Shown: positions 8,063 to 26,996 of the stretch, piece by piece
Layout: each line of letters opens with the position of its first letter
Position numbering within the stretch: the first letter of the stretch is position 1
IMG/VR virus record: IMGVR_UViG_3300025168_000428
Coordinates: 1-29,836 of that record
Source: a virus
Length of the DNA: 29,836 bases
Strand: one strand, 5' to 3'
The notes under the pieces: model-generated
What the model was told of the DNA's origin: nothing
The model's input: the letters and a program-made list of their open reading frames with translations, nothing else
Database searches by the model: none
Made by a program: the position numbers and the translations under genes

Positions 8063-10926
8063 TGGCTAGAACAAGAACAGAAGAAAGAATGGGAGAAACT
8101 TACGGAGAAGCATCCGAAGGACGTAGCTCAAGAAAAAATCAAGCGACTTCTAATAGAGCGCCATCAGGCGGTGGTGCACCACGTTTACCCAAACAACCTA
8201 AGATAGAACAAATAACTGAGGAGAAGGATACTTCACAGCCAGGTAATGCCGCAGCAAATATTGCAGCAGCATACACACCAAAACCACCAAAAGCTGTAAC
8301 TGAAGCAGAAGTAAAGTCTGAAATAGTAGCAGTATGTTTGAGGGGACAACCAACACCATCACCAATTAAACCATTGGTTATTCCAGCACCAGCAATTTTA
8401 CCACCAACAGTAATTCCAGAAAAATCTACCAAGGATATAGGTGTTCAAACACCAATGCAAATAAGGTCAGAAACAAATTTAAGACCCGACGGAGTAACAG
8501 AAATTCTTGGACCAGGCGGAGTAGTATTGGAAGAAATCGGTGGAGATGGAAGAGTTCTCGTTGACCCAATAAAAGATGTAGGATTTGACCCAAAAGACCC
8601 ACCACCAGCTATTCAAGCACTTAGAGAAGATTTTGCAGAACACGTAGCAACAGGTAAAGATGAGGCAGGAGAAGTATTTGAGGCAAAGCCAGACACAAAG
8701 AAAGCTTTAAAGAAAGCTGGATTAGAAAGATTTATTCCTAAAGTTCCTAAAAAAGTTATTGAATCCACTACTGAAAATGAAGGTGGTCAAAAAGGTGGTA
8801 CGGCAAAAGAAAAAATTATAACCACGACTCAGGCACAAGTAAAATTAACACCAAGAGATTATGTAGCAACAATTACAGAAGTCTTAGATAGTAATCGTGT
8901 TCGTGTTTCGTTATCATATAATGATGGAGTAAATCAATATCAACATAAGGGTGATGATGAAGTAGCAAAGAAATTTAAAAACTTCCGAGTCAATTATATA
9001 AATAATAATATTGAACGATACAAAACCTATATGGTAAAAGATAATCAATATTATTTAATTACAAATGAAGAACTTGGAGCAAGTGGTAAAGAAAGATTTG
9101 TTAAATTAAAACAACCACTACAAGGTACAGATGTAGATGATAAAGTTTTATTTGTAGAAAAAAGACTGCCAGACTATAAGGATATCGTTACATTAAATCC
9201 ATTTGTAGAAGCAGAAGACAGCAGTATATTTTTAAGAATACCAAATTTAAATTCAGTTGATAATCCAATTGACTTTCAAGGAACTAATTATAAAAGTCAC
9301 GATGGGTTGTTAAGTAATAAAGATGATGACGCAAGAGATATTGAAAGATTATTAACATCGGGTAGTTTATTAGATGTTCAACCAAATATTGATTATCAAA
9401 AAACAACAACTGATTTATCAATAGAAAACGATGATACAGGTTTTGGAAACTTTGTTCATTTCTCAAATGCAGAAAGAAGACTTATTAATTTTAAAGAAAA
9501 ATTAACATTGATTGAAAGTCATAGTGCAGCTAGTGCTTCATTAACAACAATATCAAGTTCTGCTAACACAAGATTAGATTTACAAAGAAAGAAACAACGA
9601 GTGATTAATTCGTTTGACCCATATGAACATTATTTATATTTTGAAAGTTCATCTTACGTGAGTTCATCAGACGGACAATTCCACGATACAGCTTGGCCTA
9701 AATCAAATTCATCTTCACCATTTACATTACAATCAACAGGAGATGCTTCAAGTTGGTACAACTCTATGATATCAAGTGCTTCTTCTTATGACCAAGGAAA
9801 TATGAATTCATTGAGAAATTCATTACCATTACACATTAATCAAGATACTGAAAATAATGTATTCTTAGAATTTATGGATATGGTCGGACAACAATTTGAT
9901 GAGATATGGACTTACACAAAATCCATTACGGATGTTAATATAAGGGTAGAAAAGTTATCAGAGGGTATATCAAAAGATGTAGCACAAAATTATGCACGAG
10001 CACTTGGATTAAACTTAACAAGTGGAAATGATTTGGTAAATTTACCTGAATATCTATTGGGTAATGATGTTGATGGAACTTCAGTATTTGAATCACCACA
10101 AGAAGCCGTAACCGAAGAAATTTGGAAAAGGATATTAGCAAACTTACCTTTCTTTATTAAATCAAAAGGAACGGAAAGAGCATTAAAAGGATTATTAAAT
10201 TGTTATGGTATACCGAGTTCAATATTACGAGTAAGAGAATATGGTGGACCAGATAAGGGAACACGAGTTAATTATGAAATTAAAAGAAAGTTTACACGAG
10301 CAACAGACTTTAGGTCTTCTCAATTTGTTAAATCACATTGGAAAACAGCCGCAGACGGACAAGTTCCTGATACGATAGAAGTTAGATTTAGAACACCTAA
10401 ATCACAAGACCAAGTCATATTACAAAAAGATAATGACTTTGCTATTTCATTACAAGACAATGGTTCAACAGATGATTATGGATTTTTAAGATTCGAAATA
10501 AGTGGTTCAGACCAAGTGTATGACCAATTTATAACTTCATCGACATTACCATTTTATAACGATGACTTCTGGTCAGTAATGTTAACAAGAAAAGATACAA
10601 GTGGAAATGAAGTTACCGATGATAAGATATTAAGTCAAAGTATTTATGAATTAACAACAAAACAATATGATTCAACAAGACAAAGAATTTTATACCAATC
10701 AAGTGAAAGTTTACAAACACACACTTCAAGTTTAGCAACTGATGTAAACAACATAACAGGTAGCCAATTAAATGCAGCATACACATCAAGTGGACACATT
10801 TATCTTGGTGGTAGTGGTAGCGCATTTGGTGCTAACACATTTACAGGTTCATTAATGGAGTTTCGTGTGTGGTCAGAACCATTGAGCAGCATACACATCA
10901 AGTGGACACATTTATCTTGGTGGTAG
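8062..10926 (+). CDS. Giant tail/baseplate protein, N-terminal part of a frame-broken gene
   Basis: Encodes 954 residues before a premature stop caused by the 112-bp tandem duplication at 10774-10998. The N-terminus (1-150) is a Pro/Ala/Gly-rich disordered tail. The middle contains beta-rich and Ser-rich stretches. Residues about 687-730 (LPFFIKSKGTERALKGLLNC onward) resemble the helix-rich core of P2 gpI-like tail proteins, which usually follow gpW and gpJ equivalents, as here. Residues about 755-941 form a LamG/concanavalin-like sandwich ending GHIYLGGSGSAFG and GSLMEFRVWSEPL. The last 12 residues are out-of-frame sequence from the duplicated copy. Position and size recall T4 gp7 (about 1030 residues). 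With one repeat copy removed, 8062-12283 is a single 1369-residue frame. Confidence 0.75.
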   Translation: MARTRTEERMGETYGEASEGRSSRKNQATSNRAPSGGGAPRLPKQPKIEQITEEKDTSQPGNAAANIAAAYTPKPPKAVTEAEVKSEIVAVCLRGQPTPSPIKPLVIPAPAILPPTVIPEKSTKDIGVQTPMQIRSETNLRPDGVTEILGPGGVVLEEIGGDGRVLVDPIKDVGFDPKDPPPAIQALREDFAEHVATGKDEAGEVFEAKPDTKKALKKAGLERFIPKVPKKVIESTTENEGGQKGGTAKEKIITTTQAQVKLTPRDYVATITEVLDSNRVRVSLSYNDGVNQYQHKGDDEVAKKFKNFRVNYINNNIERYKTYMVKDNQYYLITNEELGASGKERFVKLKQPLQGTDVDDKVLFVEKRLPDYKDIVTLNPFVEAEDSSIFLRIPNLNSVDNPIDFQGTNYKSHDGLLSNKDDDARDIERLLTSGSLLDVQPNIDYQKTTTDLSIENDDTGFGNFVHFSNAERRLINFKEKLTLIESHSAASASLTTISSSANTRLDLQRKKQRVINSFDPYEHYLYFESSSYVSSSDGQFHDTAWPKSNSSSPFTLQSTGDASSWYNSMISSASSYDQGNMNSLRNSLPLHINQDTENNVFLEFMDMVGQQFDEIWTYTKSITDVNIRVEKLSEGISKDVAQNYARALGLNLTSGNDLVNLPEYLLGNDVDGTSVFESPQEAVTEEIWKRILANLPFFIKSKGTERALKGLLNCYGIPSSILRVREYGGPDKGTRVNYEIKRKFTRATDFRSSQFVKSHWKTAADGQVPDTIEVRFRTPKSQDQVILQKDNDFAISLQDNGSTDDYGFLRFEISGSDQVYDQFITSSTLPFYNDDFWSVMLTRKDTSGNEVTDDKILSQSIYELTTKQYDSTRQRILYQSSESLQTHTSSLATDVNNITGSQLNAAYTSSGHIYLGGSGSAFGANTFTGSLMEFRVWSEPLSSIHIKWTHLSWW

Positions 10927-15167: not shown

Positions 15168-18131
15168 ATGTTTCGTTTTATGAAAAAGATGGTTATAACG
15201 ACAGTTATGTTTGGATTTGTCTTTGCACAAAGTCCAATCATAAGGGTAAAACAAATTGGTGAATGGAAAACACCAGAGTATTGGTGGAAAGCACAGGAGA
15301 CTGTACAATTACAGACTTTCTTAGCTGATGATATATCAACACCAGCTTTTAAGAATAATAATTTTGATTCTTGGAGAGATGACATTTTAGAAATAGAAGT
15401 CACTCTTGACGATGTAGGACAAGATATTACTACATTTAGATTTGATATTGCATTTGACAACGATTTAATCACTTGGATTGAAAATGATGGAACTAATCAA
15501 GAAACATCAATCAATGCTTGGAGTCAAGGAAACTCACGAGTAATTGTGGGTTCACATATAGCAGATTGGACTGAAGGTGATGAAACATCAAATAATTCAA
15601 CTGACTATTCTTTTGAAGTAGTTCACTTTTCTAATGTTGGATACACAGACGCTATCCAAAGTAGTGGGAATGAAACTTCAGCACAGGATTCAGGCTATGA
15701 TTGGTTAAGAGTTACTATGGTAAGTCACGGAGTTGATGCTAATAGTGATGGAACACCAGATTTTACATTTGGTAATGGAAACGGAAATCAAGCACAAGTA
15801 TTAAAATTACAATTTAGAATTAATGATGTAGTTGATAATTATCAACCACGTTCATTTAGAATACCTACACTTTATAGTGGTGGAACTGGATACTATACTT
15901 TCGTATCCGATGACTACCTATTAGATTATAAAGTTTACATTGACGGAAACTTTGATACCGCAGTAGACAATACAGGTAATGGTGGAGCAAGAGGAGATAT
16001 TTCTCTACATCCAAAACTTGTTGATGTTGAAGGCTTCGGTAGATACATTGGTGAATGGGTTGATGTAAATGGAGATGGAGTAAAAGATTCAGGTGATGAC
16101 TTTGAACAAAAAACTTATCCTTATTGGAAAGTTGTATTTGAGTTAGATGAAAATAATCCTGATACAGACGGAAACGGAACCGCTACACCATTCCCTACTT
16201 GGTATAATATAGAAGATGTTGCTGATGATTCAAACACAGCAGACGAAGATTTATCTGATGATGTTATTGGAGATGGTAGTGGAACATATTACTATCTGAA
16301 AATGACCGACACAAACGGAGTAACAACATTAGCAGACCAAGCATTACCTGATAAAGGATTCTTAGGAGTATCATATTTTGATTACACCTATACGGATAAA
16401 AATGGATATTATAATATTCAATTACCAAGAAATAATACTTATCGTGTTTCTATCTGGCCACCAGACGCAGCAGATGATATTGGTCAACATACACAATTAG
16501 AATTGGATAGAGGAGCGATTACAAACATTAATGACGCAATCGCAGCATTTAATTTCCAATCAAACAAATTTGAAAATTCTAATGATATTAAAGTAGATTC
16601 ACCAAGTGCTTACTTAATTGGTGATGTAGACGGAGATGATGTATTCCAATTAAATGACGCATACTTTATATGGGCATATGTAAGTGGAGTATTTTCAACA
16701 TCATATACTCACATTAATGGAAACTCATATCAACAATGGTCAAGTATAGATAATTTAAAATCAAATGGAAGTGCACAAACTCTTAATTATTATCAAGCAC
16801 TTAGAGGTGGTGATACAAAACAAAGAAGAGAGTTTACATTATTTTTAGATGACGACTTAGCACAAGAAACAACATCACTAACAAAAGACGCTGGTGGAGT
16901 TGCTTGGTTTAATCCTTTAATGGATGATGTCGTAACAGGTATGGATACTTTACAAGTAAGTATTGGAGCAGGAACATCAACCTTTGATGACCCGGACATT
17001 ACTACTGATGGAGATGTAAATCCAGATTACACTTATGATGAGGTCGCAGTTTACTTTACAGGTGATATGAATTTATCAGGAACAAAAGTTCAAGAAAGTG
17101 GTGGTGATGGATATCAAGACGCATATGCAGGAACAACATATTATCGTTGGGCAACACACACGGTTCAAAACGGAAGTTCAGGAGATAACTCTTGGAATCA
17201 GAATTGTGTAAACGCATCTTGTGATGACGCACCAAGTGCTTGGACATACACAAATACAAATGGTGAATATGATGGAGCAAGTAAAATTATGGCTACAAAT
17301 TCAACACCCGATGTAAGTTTATCATTACCAGACGATGGAAGTGTTAAAGTTCAAATGGGTAACCAAGTTGTAGTTCCTTTGACAATTACACCTAATTTAG
17401 ATTTGGTAACAGGAGAACCTACTAAGATAGCAGGTTTTGAATTTGAGGTTAGATTTGATACTAATCAATTACAATTTATTGACGCTCAAACAGGACTTTT
17501 ACCAGGACCTTGGATGACTTACTTAAATGAAAGTGAGATTGATGACGAGGGATATAAAACAATTTCATTCGGAGCATTAGAAAATTCACCAAACAATGCA
17601 CCAGAGGACTATTATTTGACTGAAGAGTTAGTTGGACTACAATTAGTATTCAATTCACAACTTAATGAAAATAATAATCAAGAGTGGACAGAAGCTGACT
17701 TACAATTTGTAGGAAAAGCTAACGCTGGTAATCCAGCGGGTGATGATTTATTTATGGAAAGACAAAGTGGAAAAATAAACATATGGAATAAGTTTTGGGC
17801 ATTTGGTGGTGGACAACCATCAGAAGATGAGATGACTTATGTTTATCCAAATCCATATAAAGATAGTGAACATAGTTCAATTAACTTCCAATTCTATATG
17901 GAACAATCAGGTAATGTGATGATTAGTATATACAACGCTAATGGTCAAAAGGTTGGAACTTTATTAGATGAAGTTGTTAATGACGGAATGCACACATATA
18001 CTTTCTCAGACTTGCCAGATGCTTTCGGTGATGGATATGGTGGATATCAAGAATTAGATTCTGGTATTTATCTATTCGTAATGGAAACAGAAAACAAAAT
18101 TAAGTCTAAGAAATTTACAATAATTAAATAA
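15168..18131 (+). CDS. Secreted surface protein with T9SS type A sorting domain
   Basis: A 987-residue protein with a signal peptide (1-20, FVFA|Q21), so exported through Sec. Two beta-sandwich regions look cohesin-like: about 72-225 (DDILEIEVTLDD, FRFDIAFDNDLITWI) and about 715-872 (KIAGFEFEVRFDTNQLQFID). Residues about 451-507 look like a dockerin doublet: TNINDAIAAF, then GDVDGDDVFQLNDAYFIWAY with the Ca-binding Asp series. Further Asp/Gly loops (DVNGDGVKDSGDD at 299-311) look Ca-binding. Residues about 890-987 are a T9SS type A sorting domain: YVYPNPYKDS, ISIYNANGQKVGTLL, LDSGIYLFVM, ending KSKKFTIIK. T9SS carries such proteins across the outer membrane and anchors them or releases them. 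GGAG lies six bases before the ATG. The gene lies between tail genes and a PorV-like gene. It is unusual for a phage; a host-derived origin is likely. Confidence 0.85.
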   Translation: MFRFMKKMVITTVMFGFVFAQSPIIRVKQIGEWKTPEYWWKAQETVQLQTFLADDISTPAFKNNNFDSWRDDILEIEVTLDDVGQDITTFRFDIAFDNDLITWIENDGTNQETSINAWSQGNSRVIVGSHIADWTEGDETSNNSTDYSFEVVHFSNVGYTDAIQSSGNETSAQDSGYDWLRVTMVSHGVDANSDGTPDFTFGNGNGNQAQVLKLQFRINDVVDNYQPRSFRIPTLYSGGTGYYTFVSDDYLLDYKVYIDGNFDTAVDNTGNGGARGDISLHPKLVDVEGFGRYIGEWVDVNGDGVKDSGDDFEQKTYPYWKVVFELDENNPDTDGNGTATPFPTWYNIEDVADDSNTADEDLSDDVIGDGSGTYYYLKMTDTNGVTTLADQALPDKGFLGVSYFDYTYTDKNGYYNIQLPRNNTYRVSIWPPDAADDIGQHTQLELDRGAITNINDAIAAFNFQSNKFENSNDIKVDSPSAYLIGDVDGDDVFQLNDAYFIWAYVSGVFSTSYTHINGNSYQQWSSIDNLKSNGSAQTLNYYQALRGGDTKQRREFTLFLDDDLAQETTSLTKDAGGVAWFNPLMDDVVTGMDTLQVSIGAGTSTFDDPDITTDGDVNPDYTYDEVAVYFTGDMNLSGTKVQESGGDGYQDAYAGTTYYRWATHTVQNGSSGDNSWNQNCVNASCDDAPSAWTYTNTNGEYDGASKIMATNSTPDVSLSLPDDGSVKVQMGNQVVVPLTITPNLDLVTGEPTKIAGFEFEVRFDTNQLQFIDAQTGLLPGPWMTYLNESEIDDEGYKTISFGALENSPNNAPEDYYLTEELVGLQLVFNSQLNENNNQEWTEADLQFVGKANAGNPAGDDLFMERQSGKINIWNKFWAFGGGQPSEDEMTYVYPNPYKDSEHSSINFQFYMEQSGNVMISIYNANGQKVGTLLDEVVNDGMHTYTFSDLPDAFGDGYGGYQELDSGIYLFVMETENKIKSKKFTIIK

Positions 18132-18139
18132 GAGGGACA

Positions 18140-18997
18140 ATGATGAAAAAATTATTAAGTTTATTAGTATTAACAGGAACATTATTTGCACAAGCAAATG
18201 ATATCTTTACACTTAATCCAAGTGTAAATAGTGCCGGTATGGGTAATGTCGGTATAGCACACGCAGATGTAAGAAATGTATTTCACAATCCAGCCTTTGC
18301 AGGACTAAAAAAGACACATTACGAAATATCACACGTAAAATGGTTACCAAACTTATCAGATGATATGGGATATCAAAGTATGTTACACACTTCAGATATG
18401 GGTTGGTCAGGTGAAATATTTTACTTTGATTACGGAACACAAACAGAAGCTAATTCAGGCGGAATCATCATAGGTGATTTTGAATCAGCATCATTTAGAA
18501 TGAGTGGTGGTTATGGATTTGGATTCAACGATTGGTTAGTCGGAGCAAGATTAAATTTCTATCATCATAATTTTGTAGACGATATTGATATCGGTATGAA
18601 CTATGGATTTGATATCGGTGCTTACAAAGAGTTCGGTAATACATCAGTTGGTATCGTATTAAAAGATGTCGGTGGTGATACAGAAATATTAGAACAAACA
18701 CTTAATTTACCTATGTCAATAGGTGTTGGTGTTGGACAAAAATTTGGAGACTTTACATTAGCATCTGATGTTAAGGTATTTGAGGATTATAATTCGATTG
18801 GTATTGGTGGAGAATATTCACTTGGTGTCGCAAGTTTAAAAGCAGGATACTATACTGAATCAGAATTTGATGTTGATTACTTTACAATAGGTGGTGGCAT
18901 TAACGCAGGTATCGTAGACTTATCATTAGCATATTACTACAATACAGATAGTTTTCATAACGAAACTTTAATGATTTCATTTGGATTTAACTTCTAA
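18140..18997 (+). CDS. PorV/PorQ-like outer-membrane beta-barrel protein
   Basis: A 285-residue protein with signal peptide (LTGTLFA|Q18). The first mature segment, SAGMGNVGIAHADVRNVFHN followed by PAFAG, matches the hallmark of the PorV/PorQ (UPF0164) family, 'GMGxxGxAxxD...xxNPA'. The rest alternates aromatic-flanked strands with Gly turns and ends in a beta-signal-like LMISFGFNF. PorV is the T9SS shuttle that binds the C-terminal sorting domains of substrates and brings them to the attachment complex. Directly following a gene for a T9SS substrate, it may escort that protein. A second ATG at 18143 is also possible; GAGGG lies before both. It could instead be a general FCB-type barrel or transporter of the same superfamily. 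Confidence 0.72.
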   Translation: MMKKLLSLLVLTGTLFAQANDIFTLNPSVNSAGMGNVGIAHADVRNVFHNPAFAGLKKTHYEISHVKWLPNLSDDMGYQSMLHTSDMGWSGEIFYFDYGTQTEANSGGIIIGDFESASFRMSGGYGFGFNDWLVGARLNFYHHNFVDDIDIGMNYGFDIGAYKEFGNTSVGIVLKDVGGDTEILEQTLNLPMSIGVGVGQKFGDFTLASDVKVFEDYNSIGIGGEYSLGVASLKAGYYTESEFDVDYFTIGGGINAGIVDLSLAYYYNTDSFHNETLMISFGFNF

Positions 18998-19137: not shown

Positions 19138-19551
19138 ATGGCAAAACAAGTAGACGCAGAACAATTAGTAGATAATTTACAAAACGCAAAGTTTGGATTA
19201 TCAATACAAAACATAGTAGCTATCGTTACGGTATTATCATCACTTATAGCAGGTTGGTATACTTTTACAGGTAGAATAGATTCATTAGAAGAAGTGGTTC
19301 AAGGATTTGCAGAAGCAAGTGATATTGAATTAGTCGGACAGAAGTTAGATACTTTTGAAAAAGATATTGATTACCTTAAAGAAAGAATCGATTCTTTTGA
19401 AGGTGTTGATTTATCAGGTATCACAGGTGATATCATTAAGTTAGAAGCTGAAATTAAAGATGTTAAAAGAAATGCTAACGCAGCTCATAAACACATAGAT
19501 AAACACGAAGTGGATTTTCACGGAGACCCATTAGCAAAATTTAAAAAATAA
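19138..19551 (+). CDS. TM-anchored coiled-coil protein
   Basis: A 137-residue protein with one transmembrane helix (about 23-43, [20 protein letters not shown]), preceded by a short acidic N-terminus and followed by a coiled coil (about 48-115) with regular hydrophobic spacing. The C-terminal tail carries His117, His119, His123 and His128. Single-TM, coiled-coil architecture fits an inner-membrane spanin subunit or a chemotaxis-like signalling scaffold; it has no lipobox or enzymatic motif. It overlaps the ferredoxin gene by one base. The function is not established; a lysis or envelope role is inferred from the neighbours. Confidence 0.65.
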
Positions 19552-19838
19552 TGACTTTTATAATAACAGAACCGTGTATCGGAACTTGTGATACAGCTTG
19601 TGTGGATGTATGTCCAGTAGATTGTATTCACGGCCCAATAGATGTAACGGGAGCAGGAGCAGAAGTAGCAGGATTAAAAACATTAGATGGAATGCAATTG
19701 TATATTGACCCCGAAGAATGTATTGATTGTGGTGCTTGTGAGCCAGAATGTCCAGTTGACGCAATATATGACGAAGATGCTGCACCAGATGATATGCAAA
19801 AGTTCATAGAAATTAACGCAAACTTTTTCAAGGAGTAG
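19551..19838 (+). CDS. Bacterial-type ferredoxin with two Fe-S cluster sites
   Basis: A 95-residue ferredoxin, a small soluble electron carrier. First site: Cys9, Cys13, Cys17 and Cys21-Pro ([17 protein letters not shown]), with Cys25 also present. Second site: Cys57-x2-Cys60-x2-Cys63-x3-Cys67-Pro ([12 protein letters not shown]). The spacing Cys9-x7-Cys17-x3-Cys21-Pro matches the [3Fe-4S]/[4Fe-4S] seven-iron family (Azotobacter FdI type), but the usual fourth Cys at residue 12 is Thr and an extra Cys is at 13, so the first cluster is probably [3Fe-4S], perhaps convertible. The acidic C-terminal tail is typical. Phage-encoded bacterial ferredoxins are uncommon; the redox partner is not evident in the window. 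Confidence 0.93.
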
Positions 19839-19842
19839 AAAA

Positions 19843-20547
19843 ATGAAAAAATTATTATCACTATTAATAACAATACCTTTCTTACTTAGTTGTGCAACAA
19901 CATCATTAGAAGCACAATCAGGTAAATCAAAAGTTCAAACTAAAATAGCATCTTATGAGGCAGAAAAAACTCTTGATGATATCAAATGGTATGACGGAGA
20001 ACCTGAAGGTATTCAAATGATTAACATTAAAATACCACAAGAAATGGTTAATATGTATCCAGAACTTCGTGAGAAGAGAGTCGGATTCGGTATGACCAAT
20101 AGAATCATCGAAGCACTTGAAGAAGCTGGTCGTTTCTATTTCGTAGAAGAAAAGGATGAAATAATCGCTAAAATGGTTAAAGAGTGGGAACGTAGTGTTA
20201 ACGGAATGTTAGAAGAAGAAATAAGTGTCGGACAATTTGCAACTACTAAATACTTTATTTACGCAGAACTATATGACTTCTCAGTTTCTAATACAGAAGA
20301 AATTAAAAGAAGAAAAGTTAAAGTAAGTAACAAAACGAGTGTTGGTATTCAAGTTCGTTTAGTTTCAGTTGAAACAGGTAGATACATTACAGGTAGTGGT
20401 TTAGGACAATCAACAAAAGAAGGTGCAGGATTTTTAAAGAATCCAAATATGGAATTTGACCAATCAACGGTTTCATACGCAACAACAGGAGCAACCATCA
20501 CAGCAGTAGCAAACGTACTAAGACGTATGGAAAAACGAGGTTGGTAA
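19843..20547 (+). CDS. CsgG-family outer-membrane lipoprotein
   Basis: A 234-residue lipoprotein of the CsgG (curli secretion channel) family. The lipobox Leu14-Leu15-Ser16-Cys17 follows a 13-residue hydrophobic signal segment. Family features include MTNRIIEALEEAGRFYFVEE (helix then strand, as in CsgG), a segment on TTKYFIYAELYDF, the strand VGIQVRLVSVETGRYITGSG and a closing helix ending RRMEKRGW. CsgG of E. coli is 277 residues and forms a nine-fold outer-membrane pore. AAGGAG lies seven bases before the ATG. The neighbouring OMP-like and second CsgG-like genes suggest one complex. It may be a secretion pore, but CsgG relatives also serve as structural lipoproteins. Confidence 0.82.
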   Translation: MKKLLSLLITIPFLLSCATTSLEAQSGKSKVQTKIASYEAEKTLDDIKWYDGEPEGIQMINIKIPQEMVNMYPELREKRVGFGMTNRIIEALEEAGRFYFVEEKDEIIAKMVKEWERSVNGMLEEEISVGQFATTKYFIYAELYDFSVSNTEEIKRRKVKVSNKTSVGIQVRLVSVETGRYITGSGLGQSTKEGAGFLKNPNMEFDQSTVSYATTGATITAVANVLRRMEKRGW

Positions 20548-20552
20548 AATGA

Positions 20553-21548
20553 ATGAAATGGTTACTTACACTACTATTAATAGGTAGTTTATACGGACAA
20601 ACTCGAAACTCTGATTTCAGTTATAATTATGTAGACCCTTGTACCCAACAAGCAGTTAATCTTAATTATAAAACCGAAACAACCCAAGATGGATTTTGGG
20701 TTACCTATTACAATCAAAGAAAATTTTTTACTTGGGTAGAGGTAGCAGACGGAACATTACAGAATTGGACTGAACAAGTCTATTCGGATTTCCAAAGTTT
20801 GTTTCCTTGTGCGGTTAACATAGCAGAAGAAGCTATCGCATCAGTTGTTAGTTTAAATCTTCAAGGTGAATTTGACGAAGAAGGTGAGGATATATCAACA
20901 ACGGAACCAAGTTTTATTGGTGGAGATATAGTTTCCACTAAATATGAATGGGCTTGGGTTACATCATTGAACTCTACATATATGACAGAGAACTTTGATT
21001 TAACGAGAGAACAAAATTATACTGCTAACGTTACTACCAATGGTAGAAAGTTTTTAGGTTTGTACGGACAAGGATTCAAACTAAAAGCTAAAAAACAAAA
21101 TTTATTTTGGAATGTTGGTGGATTATGGTATAGAACTTTTGAAGGAGATGATTGGTTAATTACAGGCAATTATGGAAAAGTTCTAAAGAAAAGATTTAGA
21201 GAGATTGGATTAGTAAGTTCGAGTATCGGAAAGATATCAGGACAAGATTTCTTTAACGTAAACACAATGTACGGATTCCAAACCAGAGTTCCTATTAGGG
21301 ATACAGATTTGGTTTTGCAAACATTTGTGAGTTACACGGTATTTAGATATTTTGAGGGATTAAATCAAGAAACTAAATACTTATTATTAGAAAGTCCGAT
21401 ATTGATTTATCCTGGCTTTAGTTTAGATATTCCTTTTGGACAATCTTTTAAACTAAATGTTGGATTTAATATTGGATATAACACATTGGTTAATGACTTG
21501 GGTGATAGAAATGTTACTTATTCATTAGTCATAGGAACTAACTTTTAG
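20553..21548 (+). CDS. Putative outer-membrane beta-barrel protein beside CsgG
   Basis: A 331-residue protein with signal peptide (LLTLLLIGSLYG|Q16). The N-terminal domain (about 20-100) contains DPCTQQAVNLNY with two spaced Cys (about 29 and 90), possibly disulfide-bonded in the periplasm. The rest is amphipathic beta strands with aromatic girdle residues (NLFWNVGGLWYRTF, DLVLQTFVSYTVFRY, FKLNVGFNIGYNTLV) and a C-terminal VTYSLVIGTNF that reads like a BAM beta-signal. It sits between two CsgG-like genes and is probably a partner channel or anchor. An ATG at 20549 belongs to a dead frame, so 20553 is the start. Confidence 0.65.
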   Translation: MKWLLTLLLIGSLYGQTRNSDFSYNYVDPCTQQAVNLNYKTETTQDGFWVTYYNQRKFFTWVEVADGTLQNWTEQVYSDFQSLFPCAVNIAEEAIASVVSLNLQGEFDEEGEDISTTEPSFIGGDIVSTKYEWAWVTSLNSTYMTENFDLTREQNYTANVTTNGRKFLGLYGQGFKLKAKKQNLFWNVGGLWYRTFEGDDWLITGNYGKVLKKRFREIGLVSSSIGKISGQDFFNVNTMYGFQTRVPIRDTDLVLQTFVSYTVFRYFEGLNQETKYLLLESPILIYPGFSLDIPFGQSFKLNVGFNIGYNTLVNDLGDRNVTYSLVIGTNF

Positions 21549-21556
21549 GAGTGAAA

Positions 21557-22198
21557 ATGAAAAAGATATTAGATACAATATTTTCTGATAACGGAGAGTT
21601 TGTTGTTCGATTTTTATTTGCAGTAGTGTGTATGGGATTTTTAACAGCTAATCTTTTTGGTCAAATGACTGAAACAGACAAAGAAATCACTAAACAAGAG
21701 CAAAGAGATAAACGAGTAGTAAGTAATCTTGTTGGACAAATGCCACAACCAACTATGGTTGATGAGTTAAAAGTCCCTACAATGAGTATATCTAATTTTG
21801 TAAATCAAGCAGAAATAGAGGGTCTTGAAGATTCAAGAGTTTTTCTTGGTGTCAGACAAATCCTTACTGAAAATGTAATGGATTCGAGATACGATTTAGT
21901 TGAAGGGAATTCAGACTTTGAAATGAAAGCTAGAGTAGTTTATTTAGGTAGACCGAGAACATCAGCAACGATTTTAGGATTGTTTAAAAGAGAATCAACA
22001 ACAACAGAAATTAGAGTTGTGGTTGAATTGATTAATAAAAAAACAGGCAAAGTAGTTAGCGGTAATGGTGTAGGATTTACCAAAAGAGATATAAGTGCTA
22101 CCGGGTTACAAATAAATGAAGATTTACCTTTTGATAGAAGTGAGCTTGGTGGTGCATTGAAAGAGGCCATCGGAAATGCAGTTAAAGAAATATTATAA
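21557..22198 (+). CDS. Second CsgG-like protein, signal peptide but no lipobox
   Basis: A frame also open from GTG 21551, but AGGAG at 21547-21551 sits five bases before the ATG at 21557, so a 213-residue product is chosen. A long N-terminal signal (about 16-36, ending TANLFG|Q) follows a charged 15-residue head. The mature part keeps the CsgG order: a first strand TMSISNFV, a segment with ARVVYLGRPRT, a strand TTTEIRVVVELINKKTGKVV, then GNGVGFTKRDIS and a C-terminal helix GALKEAIGNAVKEIL. It has no lipobox Cys, unlike the neighbour at 19843. It may form a heteromer or stack with the lipoprotein. Confidence 0.68.
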   Translation: MKKILDTIFSDNGEFVVRFLFAVVCMGFLTANLFGQMTETDKEITKQEQRDKRVVSNLVGQMPQPTMVDELKVPTMSISNFVNQAEIEGLEDSRVFLGVRQILTENVMDSRYDLVEGNSDFEMKARVVYLGRPRTSATILGLFKRESTTTEIRVVVELINKKTGKVVSGNGVGFTKRDISATGLQINEDLPFDRSELGGALKEAIGNAVKEIL

Positions 22199-22904
22199 AG
22201 ACATAGTATCATTAATGGCAACATTGTCATTATTGGCTACTGTTCTTTTTATAAACAAATATGATGTGAAACAATTGTATCGTGAGTTTGCAACTCTGCG
22301 ATTAAAAGTAGATATTCAAGAAAAAGTAATTGCTAATTTAGAAGATAGAGTTTATAATTATTCTAAACAATATCGTGAATTACAAGTAGAACTTGAAGAG
22401 CATAATAAAACTCGTGGTATTGAAAATGCAGACTTGTATGAAAGACTAAGAGAACTTGAAAGAGAGATATTAGTCCTTTCAGATATGGTTGCTAATAGAA
22501 AACCTGATACAGTGTTTTCAGCAGGAAGTGATGTAAGAGAATTCGTTGACAGACAAGAAAATCGATTAGGATTTTATGAAACTCAAGGAACAGCATTACT
22601 TGGTTGGAAAGATGATTATTTAACAACGTCTCAATTTAAATTGAATACGGTTGGTAATCTTACATTACAACCAAAAATAAAAAAAGTCAATAAAGATGAA
22701 TTTTATTCATATATTGATGAAACAAGTATTGGTGGAATAACAGTTCACGGACAAGGTGAAATACAAAAAATAGAACCACCAAGAAATCAATTAAGTCTTG
22801 GCCCATTTATAGGAGTTGCATACAACCAAACAACAGGTTTAACAGAACCAATTGTTGGAATTGGATTAACATATAATCTAATTAAAATTTGGGATTGGAG
22901 ATGA
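22176..22904 (+). CDS. TM plus coiled-coil protein, possible i-spanin
   Basis: A 242-residue protein that starts 23 bases inside the previous gene, with GAGG before the ATG. One transmembrane helix (about 10-27, IVSLMATLSLLATVLFIN) is followed by a long coiled coil (about 33-105, rich in Leu/Glu/Arg) and a C-terminal beta domain ending LSLGPFIGVAYNQTTG and GIGLTYNLIKIW. The N-terminal TM helix and periplasmic coiled coil suit an inner-membrane spanin, and similar endings (G.F.GV...VGIGLTY.L) occur in Rz-like proteins of Bacteroidota phages, as I recall. An alternative is a tether for the CsgG pair. No partner o-spanin lipoprotein of usual small size is obvious. Confidence 0.55.
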   Translation: MQLKKYYKDIVSLMATLSLLATVLFINKYDVKQLYREFATLRLKVDIQEKVIANLEDRVYNYSKQYRELQVELEEHNKTRGIENADLYERLRELEREILVLSDMVANRKPDTVFSAGSDVREFVDRQENRLGFYETQGTALLGWKDDYLTTSQFKLNTVGNLTLQPKIKKVNKDEFYSYIDETSIGGITVHGQGEIQKIEPPRNQLSLGPFIGVAYNQTTGLTEPIVGIGLTYNLIKIWDWR

Positions 22905-24473: not shown

Positions 24474-24812
24474 ATGAAAAGTCGTTCAGCCAAGAATAAA
24501 GGTAAAAGGTTACAGAATTCAGTCCGAGATTTAATCTTAGAAAAATTCAATCAATTAGAAGAAGATGATGTTCGTTCAATCACAATGGGTGATTCGGGTG
24601 AAGATATTCTTTTGTCACCAGCTGCAAGGAAGTTATTTCCTTTTTCAGTAGAATGTAAAAACCAAGAAAAGTTAAATATATGGAGTTCATTAGAACAAAC
24701 AGAAACTAATGCGGGTAAGCATACACCTTTATTGATATTTAAGAGAAATAGAAGTAAAACATACGCAGTTTTACAATTAGATGATTTAATGGAGATGTTA
24801 AATGAAAGATAA
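24474..24812 (+). CDS. PD-(D/E)XK nuclease, Holliday-junction-resolvase-like
   Basis: A 112-residue basic protein. It carries the PD-(D/E)XK core: a helix with KGKRLQNSVRDLILEKF at the N-terminus, Asp44 in SGEDILLS, and Glu60-Cys-Lys62 in PFSVECKNQE, followed by an IW-SSLEQTETNA helix and a strand (TPLLIFKRN). The order and length fit small phage Hjc/resolvase-like endonucleases. It would cut branched or flap DNA during replication and recombination. The genes that follow are DNA-metabolism genes, which supports the call. Confidence 0.78.
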   Translation: MKSRSAKNKGKRLQNSVRDLILEKFNQLEEDDVRSITMGDSGEDILLSPAARKLFPFSVECKNQEKLNIWSSLEQTETNAGKHTPLLIFKRNRSKTYAVLQLDDLMEMLNER

Positions 24813-26196
24813 CAGAGTAAAGATAGAAAAGTGGACAGATGATAAGTCAACAGAATATGATTTCAAAGTATTGATTTATGGAAACTACACTTATAGAAAA
24901 AATTTAGAAGCAGATAGTTTAGTAGAGGTATTACGACACGTAATTCCATTTATGTCTAAACAACAAAAAATACATTTTACAATTCCAATACCTGAATATG
25001 TAGAATCGTTAAACTTTCCTAATGTAGAACAAATCATTTATAAACAACCAACCTATATCAATACTATGCGACAACACTTCAATGTGATGGAGTTTATGAA
25101 GATTGTTGATTGGAGACATAATGATTGGGATATCGTTTATACACACTTACCAGAACACTCTTTACAAATAGCAAATTGTTTTCACAACGGAACAAACATT
25201 GAACCAAAGATAATTGGTTATTCACATTGGTTTGAAGTTCCTGAAAATGCACCATACGGAGAGGGTATGCCAGACTATCGTGTAAATCCAAAGAACAATC
25301 CAGTTCGTTCAATTGATTTATCAGTAGCAGGTTTATTGGTTCAACAAGAGTGTGGAGTCAATTCAGATTGGTTAAAACAGCTAACAATTAACGAAGCATC
25401 CAAACACTACAATCAAGAAGTATTAGATGACTTAGAAAAAATTATACAACCACATTATCTTGGTGTTGATAGAATTAATATTAGAAAAGAATATAAAGAC
25501 AAGACTGTTATCTTTAATCATAGAGGAGCAGGATATACGGGTTGGGCTTGGTTTTGTGAAGCTATGGACGAACTTTGGACTGAACGACAGGACTTCAAAG
25601 TCTATACTACTATGGCAAGCCCATCACCTTCAAGAGAATGGCATGAGAAAGTCAACTTAGCCGGTAGAGATGAATATATGGATTTCTTATCTACGATGAA
25701 GTTTGGTGTCGGAACATTCGAAACATATAGTGCTTGGTCAATATCAACGACTGATGGATTTAGTGTTGGTGTTCCATATCTATTACCAAATAAATTATGT
25801 TATCCTGAAATGGTTAGTGTTTCTGACAAACCTTATCCATACTTATATGAGGACAAGAAAGACTTTAAGAAAAAGTTTATAGAGATGTTAGATAATCCTA
25901 TCGATTACAATACAGAAGAACTTGCACAACATATGATATGGGAAGAAAGAATATCTAAGTGGTTTAATAGTTGGAAAAATGTATACGACTTGAAACCAAT
26001 GGGAGATACTGAAGGATTACAAAAATGTATTGATTTTATTAAGAAAAAAGGTGTAACGAACAAATTTGATATGATGAAAGAATTTGGATGGGGTTACAGA
26101 GTTAAGTTTAATTCTTACAGAAATGCATTAAGAGGTAATAAAAATATTAAATTCACCAAAGATGGATACGAGTGGATAGGAGACGATGATGAATAA
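24802..26196 (+). CDS. GT-B-like glycosyltransferase with winged-helix-like tail
   Basis: A 464-residue protein overlapping the nuclease gene by 11 bases. The second Rossmann-like half begins with VIFNHRGAGYTGWAWFCEAM (about 236-255) and contains GVGTFETYSAWS (302-313) then GFSVGVPYLLP (319-329), the 'E...A...G.P.L' nucleotide-sugar-binding layout of GT-B enzymes. Residues about 403-462 (CIDFIKKKGVTNKFDMMKEF, then SYRNALRGNKNIKFTKDGYE) read like a winged helix with a beta wing, suggesting that it binds nucleic acid. If so, the target may be phage DNA, as for T4 glucosyltransferases. Other targets, such as surface glycans, are open. The fold call is by eye. Confidence 0.65.
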   Translation: MKDNRVKIEKWTDDKSTEYDFKVLIYGNYTYRKNLEADSLVEVLRHVIPFMSKQQKIHFTIPIPEYVESLNFPNVEQIIYKQPTYINTMRQHFNVMEFMKIVDWRHNDWDIVYTHLPEHSLQIANCFHNGTNIEPKIIGYSHWFEVPENAPYGEGMPDYRVNPKNNPVRSIDLSVAGLLVQQECGVNSDWLKQLTINEASKHYNQEVLDDLEKIIQPHYLGVDRINIRKEYKDKTVIFNHRGAGYTGWAWFCEAMDELWTERQDFKVYTTMASPSPSREWHEKVNLAGRDEYMDFLSTMKFGVGTFETYSAWSISTTDGFSVGVPYLLPNKLCYPEMVSVSDKPYPYLYEDKKDFKKKFIEMLDNPIDYNTEELAQHMIWEERISKWFNSWKNVYDLKPMGDTEGLQKCIDFIKKKGVTNKFDMMKEFGWGYRVKFNSYRNALRGNKNIKFTKDGYEWIGDDDE

Positions 26197-26317: not shown

Positions 26318-26454
26318 TGAGCAAAAAGAAATCAATATTTGATTCTGGCACAACCAAAGGCTCTGCACCAAGAAAATCTAATAAAAAGAAGTATGATGAA
26401 AATTGGGAAAAGATTTTTGGTAAGAAAAAGAACAAGGATACAAAAAGTAAATGA
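26317..26454 (+). CDS. 45-residue Lys-rich micro-protein
   Basis: ATG at 26317 overlaps the previous stop by one base and gives MSKKKSIFDSGTTKGSAPRK, then SNKKKYDENWEKIFGKKKNK and DTKSK. Very basic and likely disordered; probably nucleic-acid-binding or a fragment of a larger family. Stop overlaps the next ATG (ATGA at 26451). No recognised family. Confidence 0.55.
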   Translation: MSKKKSIFDSGTTKGSAPRKSNKKKYDENWEKIFGKKKNKDTKSK

Positions 26455-26996
26455 ACAAAGAAAAAATAGTTATAGCAAGTGGATACTTTGACCCGATACA
26501 CGTTGGTCATTTAGAATATTTAAAAATGGCAAATGAGTTAGGTGATAAGTTAGTAGTTATCATCAATAATGACGAACAAGCTACATTGAAAAAGGGTAAA
26601 CCCTTTATGGCAGAAAAGGATAGATTAGAAATCGTTTTTGCGTTAGGTATAGTGGACGAAGTCTTGATAAGTATAGATGAGGACGCTAGTGTATGTAAAT
26701 CACTCGAAATGGTAGCCAGGTTCCACGAACTTTCAAGCCTTACCTTTTGTAAGGGTGGGGATAGAAACTTTGGAGAAGTTCCAGAAGTTAAGACTTGTGA
26801 GAGATTAGACATTGAAATGGTAGATGGATTAGGTGAAAAGATTAGAAGTTCATCGGAATATACGGGCTTAAAAGAAAAGTCACCTACATTAGTTGATGTA
26901 GAGATGATTAGTCAAGGTATTAAGAATTTAGACTTAGAAGAAGAGTTAGAAGCTCGTGATTTAAAAGCTAGAGAATCGGGTCTATTGGAAGTATGA
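26451..26996 (+). CDS. HxGH nucleotidyltransferase (cytidylyltransferase-like)
   Basis: A 181-residue enzyme of the cytidylyltransferase-like superfamily, which activates a phosphorylated substrate by attaching CMP or AMP. His17-Val-Gly-His20 (GYFDPIHVGHLEYL) is the phosphate-binding motif, with KGGDRN (101-106) and KIRSSSE (130-136) as the later conserved motifs. Closest in look to RfaE/HldE ADP-heptose or TagD-type glycerol-3-phosphate enzymes. The C-terminal about 40 residues are an acidic helical extension. It lies two small genes downstream of the glycosyltransferase, so it may make its sugar donor. The substrate is uncertain. Confidence 0.8.
   Translation: MNKEKIVIASGYFDPIHVGHLEYLKMANELGDKLVVIINNDEQATLKKGKPFMAEKDRLEIVFALGIVDEVLISIDEDASVCKSLEMVARFHELSSLTFCKGGDRNFGEVPEVKTCERLDIEMVDGLGEKIRSSSEYTGLKEKSPTLVDVEMISQGIKNLDLEEELEARDLKARESGLLEV

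Follow-up and report, generated by a model that had tools for sequence, protein, structure and literature searches.

The window analysed here is the whole of a linear virus record of 29,836 bases (IMG/VR record IMGVR_UViG_3300025168_000428). Two adjacent genes, g14 and g15, encode a likely substrate of the type IX secretion system (T9SS), here called the cargo, and an outer-membrane barrel of the family that comprises the T9SS proteins PorV and PorQ. They are followed by a block of genes (g16-g21), one of which, g18, distantly resembles CsgG. The features of the pair are listed below, with coordinates in the window, strand, description and, in brackets, the source of the assignment.

15168..18131, + strand: g14, predicted exported cargo, likely T9SS type A substrate, 987 amino acids (open reading frame, Pfam, TIGR04183)
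16623..16658, + strand: dockerin-like calcium-loop motif of g14, residues 486-497, DVDGDDVFQLND (sequence reading; Pfam Dockerin_1 unmatched in g14)
17337..17495, + strand: C-terminal cohesin domain of g14, residues 724-776 (Pfam PF00963)
17841..18122, + strand: T9SS type A C-terminal sorting domain of g14, residues 892-985 (TIGR04183)
18132..18139, + strand: 8-base gap between g14 and g15, GAGGGACA, containing a ribosome-binding-like GAGGG (sequence reading)
18140..18997, + strand: g15, PorV/PorQ-family outer-membrane barrel, 285 amino acids, orthologue of neither PorV nor PorQ (NCBIfam, fold, tree)

The initial annotation, made from the sequence alone, had described a 987-residue protein ending in a type A sorting domain and, eight bases downstream, a PorV/PorQ-type barrel. 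Both descriptions hold: TIGR04183 matches residues 892-985 of g14 with 34.2 bits (cut-off 23; E = 1.9e-8), the PorV/PorQ family model NF033709 matches g15 with 90.2 bits, just over its cut-off of 90 (E = 1.9e-25), and the open reading frames lie as described. Pfam Por_Secre_tail also scores above its cut-off on g14 (27.4 bits; cut-off 27). Chance matches are excluded for both families; the sorting domain is present in 13 of 13 aligned phage cargo sequences and the PorV/PorQ model matches 13 of 13 aligned barrel sequences (E <= 0.01), some rows in either set being near-copies. As a type A domain is enough to send a reporter out by way of the T9SS, and makes use of PorV (PMC12618676), g14 is likely to be exported by the T9SS of the host. 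Both g14 and g15 begin with signal-peptide-like stretches (...FVFAQ and ...TLFAQ, respectively), as read by eye. Of the cohesin/dockerin-like character originally attributed to g14, the cohesin part stands (PF00963, residues 724-776, 25.8 bits; cut-off 24.1); the dockerin part is limited to the loop at residues 486-497, since Pfam Dockerin_1 finds nothing in g14 at E <= 0.1. Structure prediction served the barrel and not the cargo, whose model is poor (predicted local distance difference test, pLDDT, 40.2; predicted template modelling score, pTM, 0.29).

The AlphaFold model of g15 (pLDDT 70.8, pTM 0.72) is a FadL-type barrel with 14 long strands. In Foldseek it is matched best by two chains from T9SS translocon structures, 8gl6_F (E = 9e-11) and 6h3i_F (E = 7e-10), presumably PorV, the entry titles naming the translocon only. 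A fold search of BFVD gave weak matches to phage proteins, several of them named outer-membrane barrels (best E = 1.4e-4, TM-score 0.39), and the barrel profile, when searched against PDB sequences, met with chance-like matches only. A tree was built from the 13 phage sequences together with 16 PorV-like and 5 PorQ-like sequences from Bacteroidota, the two labels being our own, assigned by length and start motif. The phage barrels form a separate clade (100/99), outside both groups; its placement is unsure, since the branch leading to it is very long (3.9 changes per column). A reading of g15 as a PorV is not supported: the protein falls in its own clade and misses the equivalog cut-offs for PorV and PorQ, with scores given below.

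Scans of IMG/VR returned 45 loci by cargo and 15 by barrel, the latter all included among the former. The cargo gene is whole in 16 of the 45. One of these contigs (L025) ends 85 bases past it; all of the other 15, which reach at least 0.8 kb beyond the cargo, carry the barrel. The barrel directly adjoins the cargo in 12 of the 15; the remaining three feature a single small open reading frame in between (L009, L014) or the same gap as L014 (L011). The intervening frames, at 12957-13451 in L009 (164 amino acids) and 12970-13368 in L014 (132 amino acids), have signal-like starts, that of L009 being similar to the start of g20. Among these contigs, L011 and L014, as well as L016 and L021, are near-copies, and L008 equals the window in these proteins. 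Two further barrel contigs are L107, where the cargo is adjacent, and L106, which begins within the barrel.

In the window and its relatives, the cargo gene directly follows g12 and g13, named tail-region genes by position only. Upstream genes and the downstream genes g16-g31 are mostly found in the same order where contigs reach, some being missing or moved. The 15 pair-bearing virus contigs come, by name, from 14 IMG datasets and all show a phage context; three of them (L014, L028, L052) run continuously from the tail region across the whole block into later phage genes. Ratios of nonsynonymous to synonymous substitution rates are 0.18-0.25 for g14 and 0.16-0.26 for g15 (six chosen relatives each), similar to those of the tail-region gene g12 (0.13-0.33, five relatives). 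g14 and g15 are phage genes under purifying selection, and selection and synteny over many virus contigs support the earlier description of a phage-borne type A substrate beside a PorV-family barrel. Their phage-like base use, also noted at the outset, is seen in a guanine-cytosine content that resembles that of the neighbouring genes.

As delimited, 29 of the 45 cargo loci stop within the cargo gene, although the contig of one of them (L046) itself continues. The cargo gene (15168-18131 and its relatives) behaves as if it were strongly variable in populations, breaking assembly.

The genes downstream of the barrel are the following:

19138..19551, + strand: g16, small membrane/coiled-coil protein by eye, in the same block (PHROGs matches weak: best 5.8e-4, spanin-like 0.027)
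19551..19838, + strand: g17, ferredoxin-like protein, with a cysteine pattern of two clusters by eye (phrog_8732, 3.8e-20)
19843..20547, + strand: g18, CsgG-like envelope protein with a lipobox-like N-terminus by eye (profile comparisons)
20553..21548, + strand: g19, exported protein by eye, homologue of gp018 of Flavobacterium phage immuto (profile comparison)
21551..22198, + strand: g20, exported protein by eye, homologue of immuto gp019 (profile comparison)
22176..22904, + strand: g21, membrane-anchored coiled-coil, spanin-like protein (phrog_739, Rz-like spanin, 1.6e-4)

A five-row g18 profile, run against 395 Bacteroidota genomes, gave one match (L100; E = 5.5e-7), to a protein which is a clear CsgG (Pfam 8.7e-37). 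The g18 proteins themselves miss the cut-off of Pfam CsgG (PF03783), which is reported for one of the five rows at E = 0.018; other families match as weakly or better, MksE for example reaching 0.0015 in three of the five. Comparison of g18-g21 with the CsgF/CsgG curli cluster of phage HTVC008M gave nothing significant, and neither a CsgG nor a CsgF chain was found when g18 and g19 profiles were searched against the PDB. Since the link is distant, the Pfam cut-off being missed and HTVC008M unmatched, g18 is termed CsgG-like and not CsgG. g20 is perhaps a distant paralogue of g18. g16 is conserved in the related contigs that extend that far, and was not seen in L009. The ferredoxin-like gene g17 sits within the envelope block in the window and in L010, L011, L014, L028 and L052; in L103 and L107 the spacing of open reading frames is too tight for it, and it is not among immuto gp013-gp019. 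Its membership of the module is unclear. No described function for the g18-g19 gene block was found in the open-access literature.

In many phages, the cargo gene is found in company with the gene for the CsgG-like protein and with two further envelope genes. A scan of viruses with the g18 family gave at least 416 places, 80 of which (L101-L180) were examined, near-copies included (64 distinct complete g18 proteins); in 72 of the 80, identity to g18 is just 35-41%. Of the 80 loci, 77 contain a gene like g19, which in 74 is located downstream of g18; a gene like g20 is present in 64, downstream in 32 only, the other matches lying upstream. Searches for partner genes used 50 records, many of them fragments: five contigs already known from the lineage of the window were left out of the 80, and the first 50 of the remaining 75 were taken. 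A sorting domain was found at E <= 0.001 in 28 of the 50, over the cut-off in 27; a PorV-family match was found in two, both close relatives of the window and both fragments. Almost all sorting-domain places (28 out of 30) lie on the same strand as g18, 312-1428 bases upstream of it, on contigs of 5-306 kb. Two such places lie far from g18, at 58327-58560 in the record of L137 (G612) and, under the cut-off, at 10341-10508 in that of L131 (G606); judging from these domains, a second T9SS substrate may exist in some phages.

Upstream of g18, 45 of the 80 loci feature a sorting-domain cargo, 20 a homologue without a recognized sorting domain and 8 neither, while 7 start too close to g18. These classes were assigned by a sorting-domain profile of our own, which diverged domains could escape, and they are partly circular, because the profile was built from 38 proteins all matching Pfam Por_Secre_tail. 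In the 38, which include the cargo proteins of the window and of immuto, TIGR04183 matches 34 (E <= 0.001), Cohesin 23 and Dockerin_1 6; among 13 proteins without the sorting domain (10 full-size and three of the immuto gp014 kind), Cohesin matches 9. An alignment of the 32 sorting-domain proteins of full size with the 10 that lack the domain extends across 492 columns (probability 100, E = 2.4e-43). The cargo family of the window aligns with the sorting-domain proteins over 230 C-terminal columns, spanning cohesin and sorting domain (probability 99.1, E = 8.8e-19), and with the domain-less ones over 84 cohesin columns only (68.2).

A cultured counterpart is Flavobacterium phage immuto (Immutovirus, NC_055915), isolated on Flavobacterium, which shares baseplate and primase homologues with the window: together with Microcystis phage Mel-JY01 and an uncultured 484-kb phage, it tops the lists of phage records for the primase and for the g05 baseplate protein. 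Its protein gp015 features a cohesin domain and a sorting domain (46.5 bits), and stands beside homologues of g18 (gp017, 2e-47), g19 (gp018, 9e-10) and g20 (gp019, 1e-9), as found by searching seven proteins. The two phages differ in that the immuto cargo is split between gp014 and gp015, and in that its module, gp013-gp019 (10.5-16.4 kb), is widely separated from its tail genes (82-101 kb). Because one 630-residue cargo matches gp014 and gp015 in one run, the immuto cargo is read as the same protein in two pieces. Since the match of the window cargo to immuto at profile level is weak over the whole protein (6.2 bits), their relation is founded on the two shared domains (cohesin and sorting domain) and on this split match. 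Two genes before gp015, gp013 (L095, 8704-9702) has a C-type lectin domain and, by eye, a dockerin-like loop; it is a possible partner in a phage cohesin-dockerin pair.

The barrel profile has no match in immuto at E <= 1, while the same profile matches in 162 of the 395 Bacteroidota genomes. A PorV-like gene is present in just 6 of the 45 g18 loci with sorting-domain cargo, within the flanks examined. These phages therefore seem mostly to rely on the shuttle of the host, the PorV-like gene being an addition of the lineage of the window; its absence from most such loci suggests that g15 is not generally required, and a need for a phage-made shuttle is not supported. As to the host, the only place that a single genome scan gave was on a phage contig (L023) that had been binned with a metagenome-assembled genome of Flavobacteriaceae; among 199 Flavobacteriaceae genomes, L023 apart, short matches occur in nine, in eight of them within the sorting-domain region. 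Immuto, for its part, infects Flavobacterium. A Bacteroidota host is likely, though short of shown, the binning of phage contigs being error-prone.

The explanation moderately favoured here is that of a phage surface-display module, composed of a T9SS cargo, a PorV/PorQ-family barrel and a CsgG-like envelope block, which would alter the surface of the infected cell. During infection, g14 would cross the inner membrane by the Sec pathway; its sorting domain would fold in the periplasm, and the protein would leave through the SprA translocon of the host. In most of these phages the cargo would be collected by host PorV; in the lineage of the window, g15 would collect it, or would serve as an anchor dedicated to holding it in the outer membrane. 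A role of g15 as shuttle or anchor is plausible, and may be likened to that of SprF-type barrels, each serving a type B substrate encoded just upstream: the adjacency and order of g14 and g15 would then represent type B logic built from type A parts. Cohesin-type domains bind partners. Displayed on an infected cell, a cohesin-type protein would alter the surface, with the masking of receptors or the exclusion of other phages as the most likely effect; display, perhaps for superinfection exclusion, would be its purpose, with masking or exclusion as the simplest guess. Aggregation and altered surface binding, which the initial annotation had put beside exclusion, would be other conceivable uses. 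The CsgG-like block would be a second phage-made envelope device, working with the same cargo protein.

A number of observations weigh against this explanation, most of them concerning the barrel. The scores of g15 are far below the equivalog cut-offs, both for PorV (NF033710, 40.5 bits; cut-off 250) and for PorQ (NF033711, 54.5 bits; cut-off 220). It is about 90 residues shorter than PorV-like sequences and, in the alignment, lacks an insertion of about 40 residues present in 3 of 3 PorV-like rows and absent from 2 of 2 PorQ-like ones. In VIA-align, the T9SS chains (Z 27.4 and 26.9) tie with a FadL mutant (27.0), and a chain of the Flavobacterium johnsoniae β-barrel assembly machinery (BAM) complex also matches (Z 24.2); BamG of that complex is FadL-type (PMC12611786). 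The fold by itself is thus not diagnostic of a shuttle, as FadL transporters tie and a BAM chain matches too. The barrel, moreover, has been exchanged independently of the cargo: identities to the window are 91% for g12, 88% for g14 and 57% for g15 in L009, and 70%, 79% and 94%, respectively, in L024. Swapping of this kind disfavours a tight matching of cargo and shuttle. Host PorV seems to be present in excess or to undergo recycling (PMC12618676), which leaves no obvious need for a copy from the phage. The 20 loci out of 80 with a homologue lacking a recognized sorting domain indicate that the module does not depend on T9SS export. Finally, no host genome for the lineage of the window was identified in the genome scans.

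Several of these facts would also fit another arrangement, in which the cargo uses both the T9SS and the PorV of the host, and g15 is an unrelated phage outer-membrane protein, such as a FadL-type channel or a host-mimicking decoy, merely adjacent to it. Phages with homologous cargo mostly lack a PorV-like gene (present in two of the 50 records, both fragments, in 6 of 45 loci within the examined flanks, and not in immuto), FadL transporters tie with the T9SS chains in VIA-align, the barrel is swapped independently of the cargo, and the equivalog cut-offs are missed. Yet the family model that g15 does pass is that of PorV/PorQ, the cargo is present in all 15 contigs of the barrel scan and in L107, the remaining barrel contig (L106) beginning inside the barrel, and the two top Foldseek matches are T9SS translocon chains, presumably PorV. 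The arrangement is possible, though less likely than not.

The CsgG-like block might instead be the real machine, a phage device for export or permeabilization serving the cohesin-type protein, with the T9SS domain as an optional addition where the host possesses a T9SS. A homologue without recognized sorting domain stands upstream of g18 in the 20 loci mentioned, related to the sorting-domain form over 492 columns, and g18 profiles do reach a genuine CsgG; CsgG and CsgF genes are known in marine myophages, where roles in lysis timing or as pores have been proposed (PMC7029224, PMC9004378). The similarity on which such a machine would be built is, however, distant: g18 stays under the Pfam CsgG cut-off (E = 0.018 in one of five rows, as against 0.0015 for MksE in three), is unlike the HTVC008M CsgG, and its profiles find no CsgG chain in the PDB. 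This, too, is possible but less likely than not.

That the cargo is a virion fibre or adhesin, as its place directly after the tail-region genes g12 and g13 in the window and its relatives could indicate, is improbable: by eye it starts with a signal peptide, it carries a sorting domain, and in immuto a wide stretch separates the module (10.5-16.4 kb) from the tail genes (82-101 kb). That the pair is a piece of host DNA or a product of faulty joining in assembly, as the 29 of 45 loci ending in the cargo gene might suggest, is rejected with near certainty, the pair being found in phage context on 15 virus contigs from 14 datasets, with the whole block spanned by L014, L028 and L052.

With the surface-display module as the favoured reading, a broader picture may be proposed, quite tentatively. 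A large group of phages, probably of Bacteroidota, would carry its own surface-assembly kit, centred on a cohesin-type display protein; the sorting-domain form would leave through the host T9SS and the domain-less form by another route, perhaps the CsgG-like block. In the lineage of the window, a type A substrate would for the first time have gained a shuttle or anchor of its own, turning one shuttle for all into a cargo-specific pair. If true, phages remodel the Bacteroidota surface by feeding a protein of their own to the host type IX machine, some with a dedicated outer-membrane partner; shuttle specificity extends to type A substrates, and a widespread phage envelope block gains a role. 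Immuto on Flavobacterium would then be a cultured phage for testing, and the natural forms with and without the sorting domain a ready comparison.

In the rest of the window, family searches of the proteins matched g04 and g05 to baseplate wedge proteins, g26 to a RusA-like resolvase, g29 to a DNA primase and g31 to an SbcC-like protein; the PHROGs search gave no clear family match for g12 and g13. No tblastn match at E <= 0.01 was found for g14 or g15 in the phage record collection. A promoter scan of the gene block gave 34 sites, as against 40.6 in shuffled sequences. A 464-residue gene at 24802-26196, glycosyltransferase-like by eye and without an NCBIfam match, appears to be an insertion in the window, since it has no counterpart in L014, L028 and L052. 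The gene at 26451-26996 encodes a nucleotidyltransferase with a match, below the cut-off, to the heptose-phosphate adenylyltransferase model TIGR02199 (1.1e-18); this relationship may hint at handling of surface sugars by the phage.

Among known systems, the closest in its cargo is Cryophage (Bellas et al. 2020, PMC7468147); the initial annotation had known of no characterised phage with the arrangement that it proposed. In the available part of that paper, phage genes with type A sorting domains are described, hijacking of the host T9SS is proposed, and superinfection exclusion is suggested. The cargo proteins differ, being an endoglucanase, a glycoside hydrolase and a PA14 protein in Cryophage and a cohesin-type protein here; that part of the account, moreover, mentions neither a PorV-like gene nor a CsgG-like block, while the window cargo stands beside both, in an arrangement conserved in its lineage. 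Phage T9SS cargo is therefore already known. What is apparently unreported is the pairing with a PorV-family protein and the association with a CsgG-like block: neither turned up in searches of a collection of open-access papers that holds few subscription papers and no bioRxiv preprints.

The CsgGF clusters of pelagimyophages and of phage Melnitz (PMC7029224, PMC9004378) share with the window a phage envelope cluster with a CsgG-type protein. They differ in that g18-g21 bear no significant resemblance to HTVC008M, and in that the available parts of the two papers do not mention T9SS cargo. With PorV and PorQ of the T9SS, g15 shares the family model NF033709 and the FadL-type fold; it differs in falling under both equivalog cut-offs, in being shorter than PorV and in forming its own clade. 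The gene arrangement finds its nearest likeness in the type B substrates of F. johnsoniae, whose shuttle gene, of SprF/PorP type, is commonly found directly downstream (PMC12618676): in both cases a substrate gene is followed by the gene for an outer-membrane shuttle, actual or putative. In the pair described here, however, a type A domain is combined with a PorV/PorQ-family barrel, while type A substrates are held, in the same source, to share one PorV.

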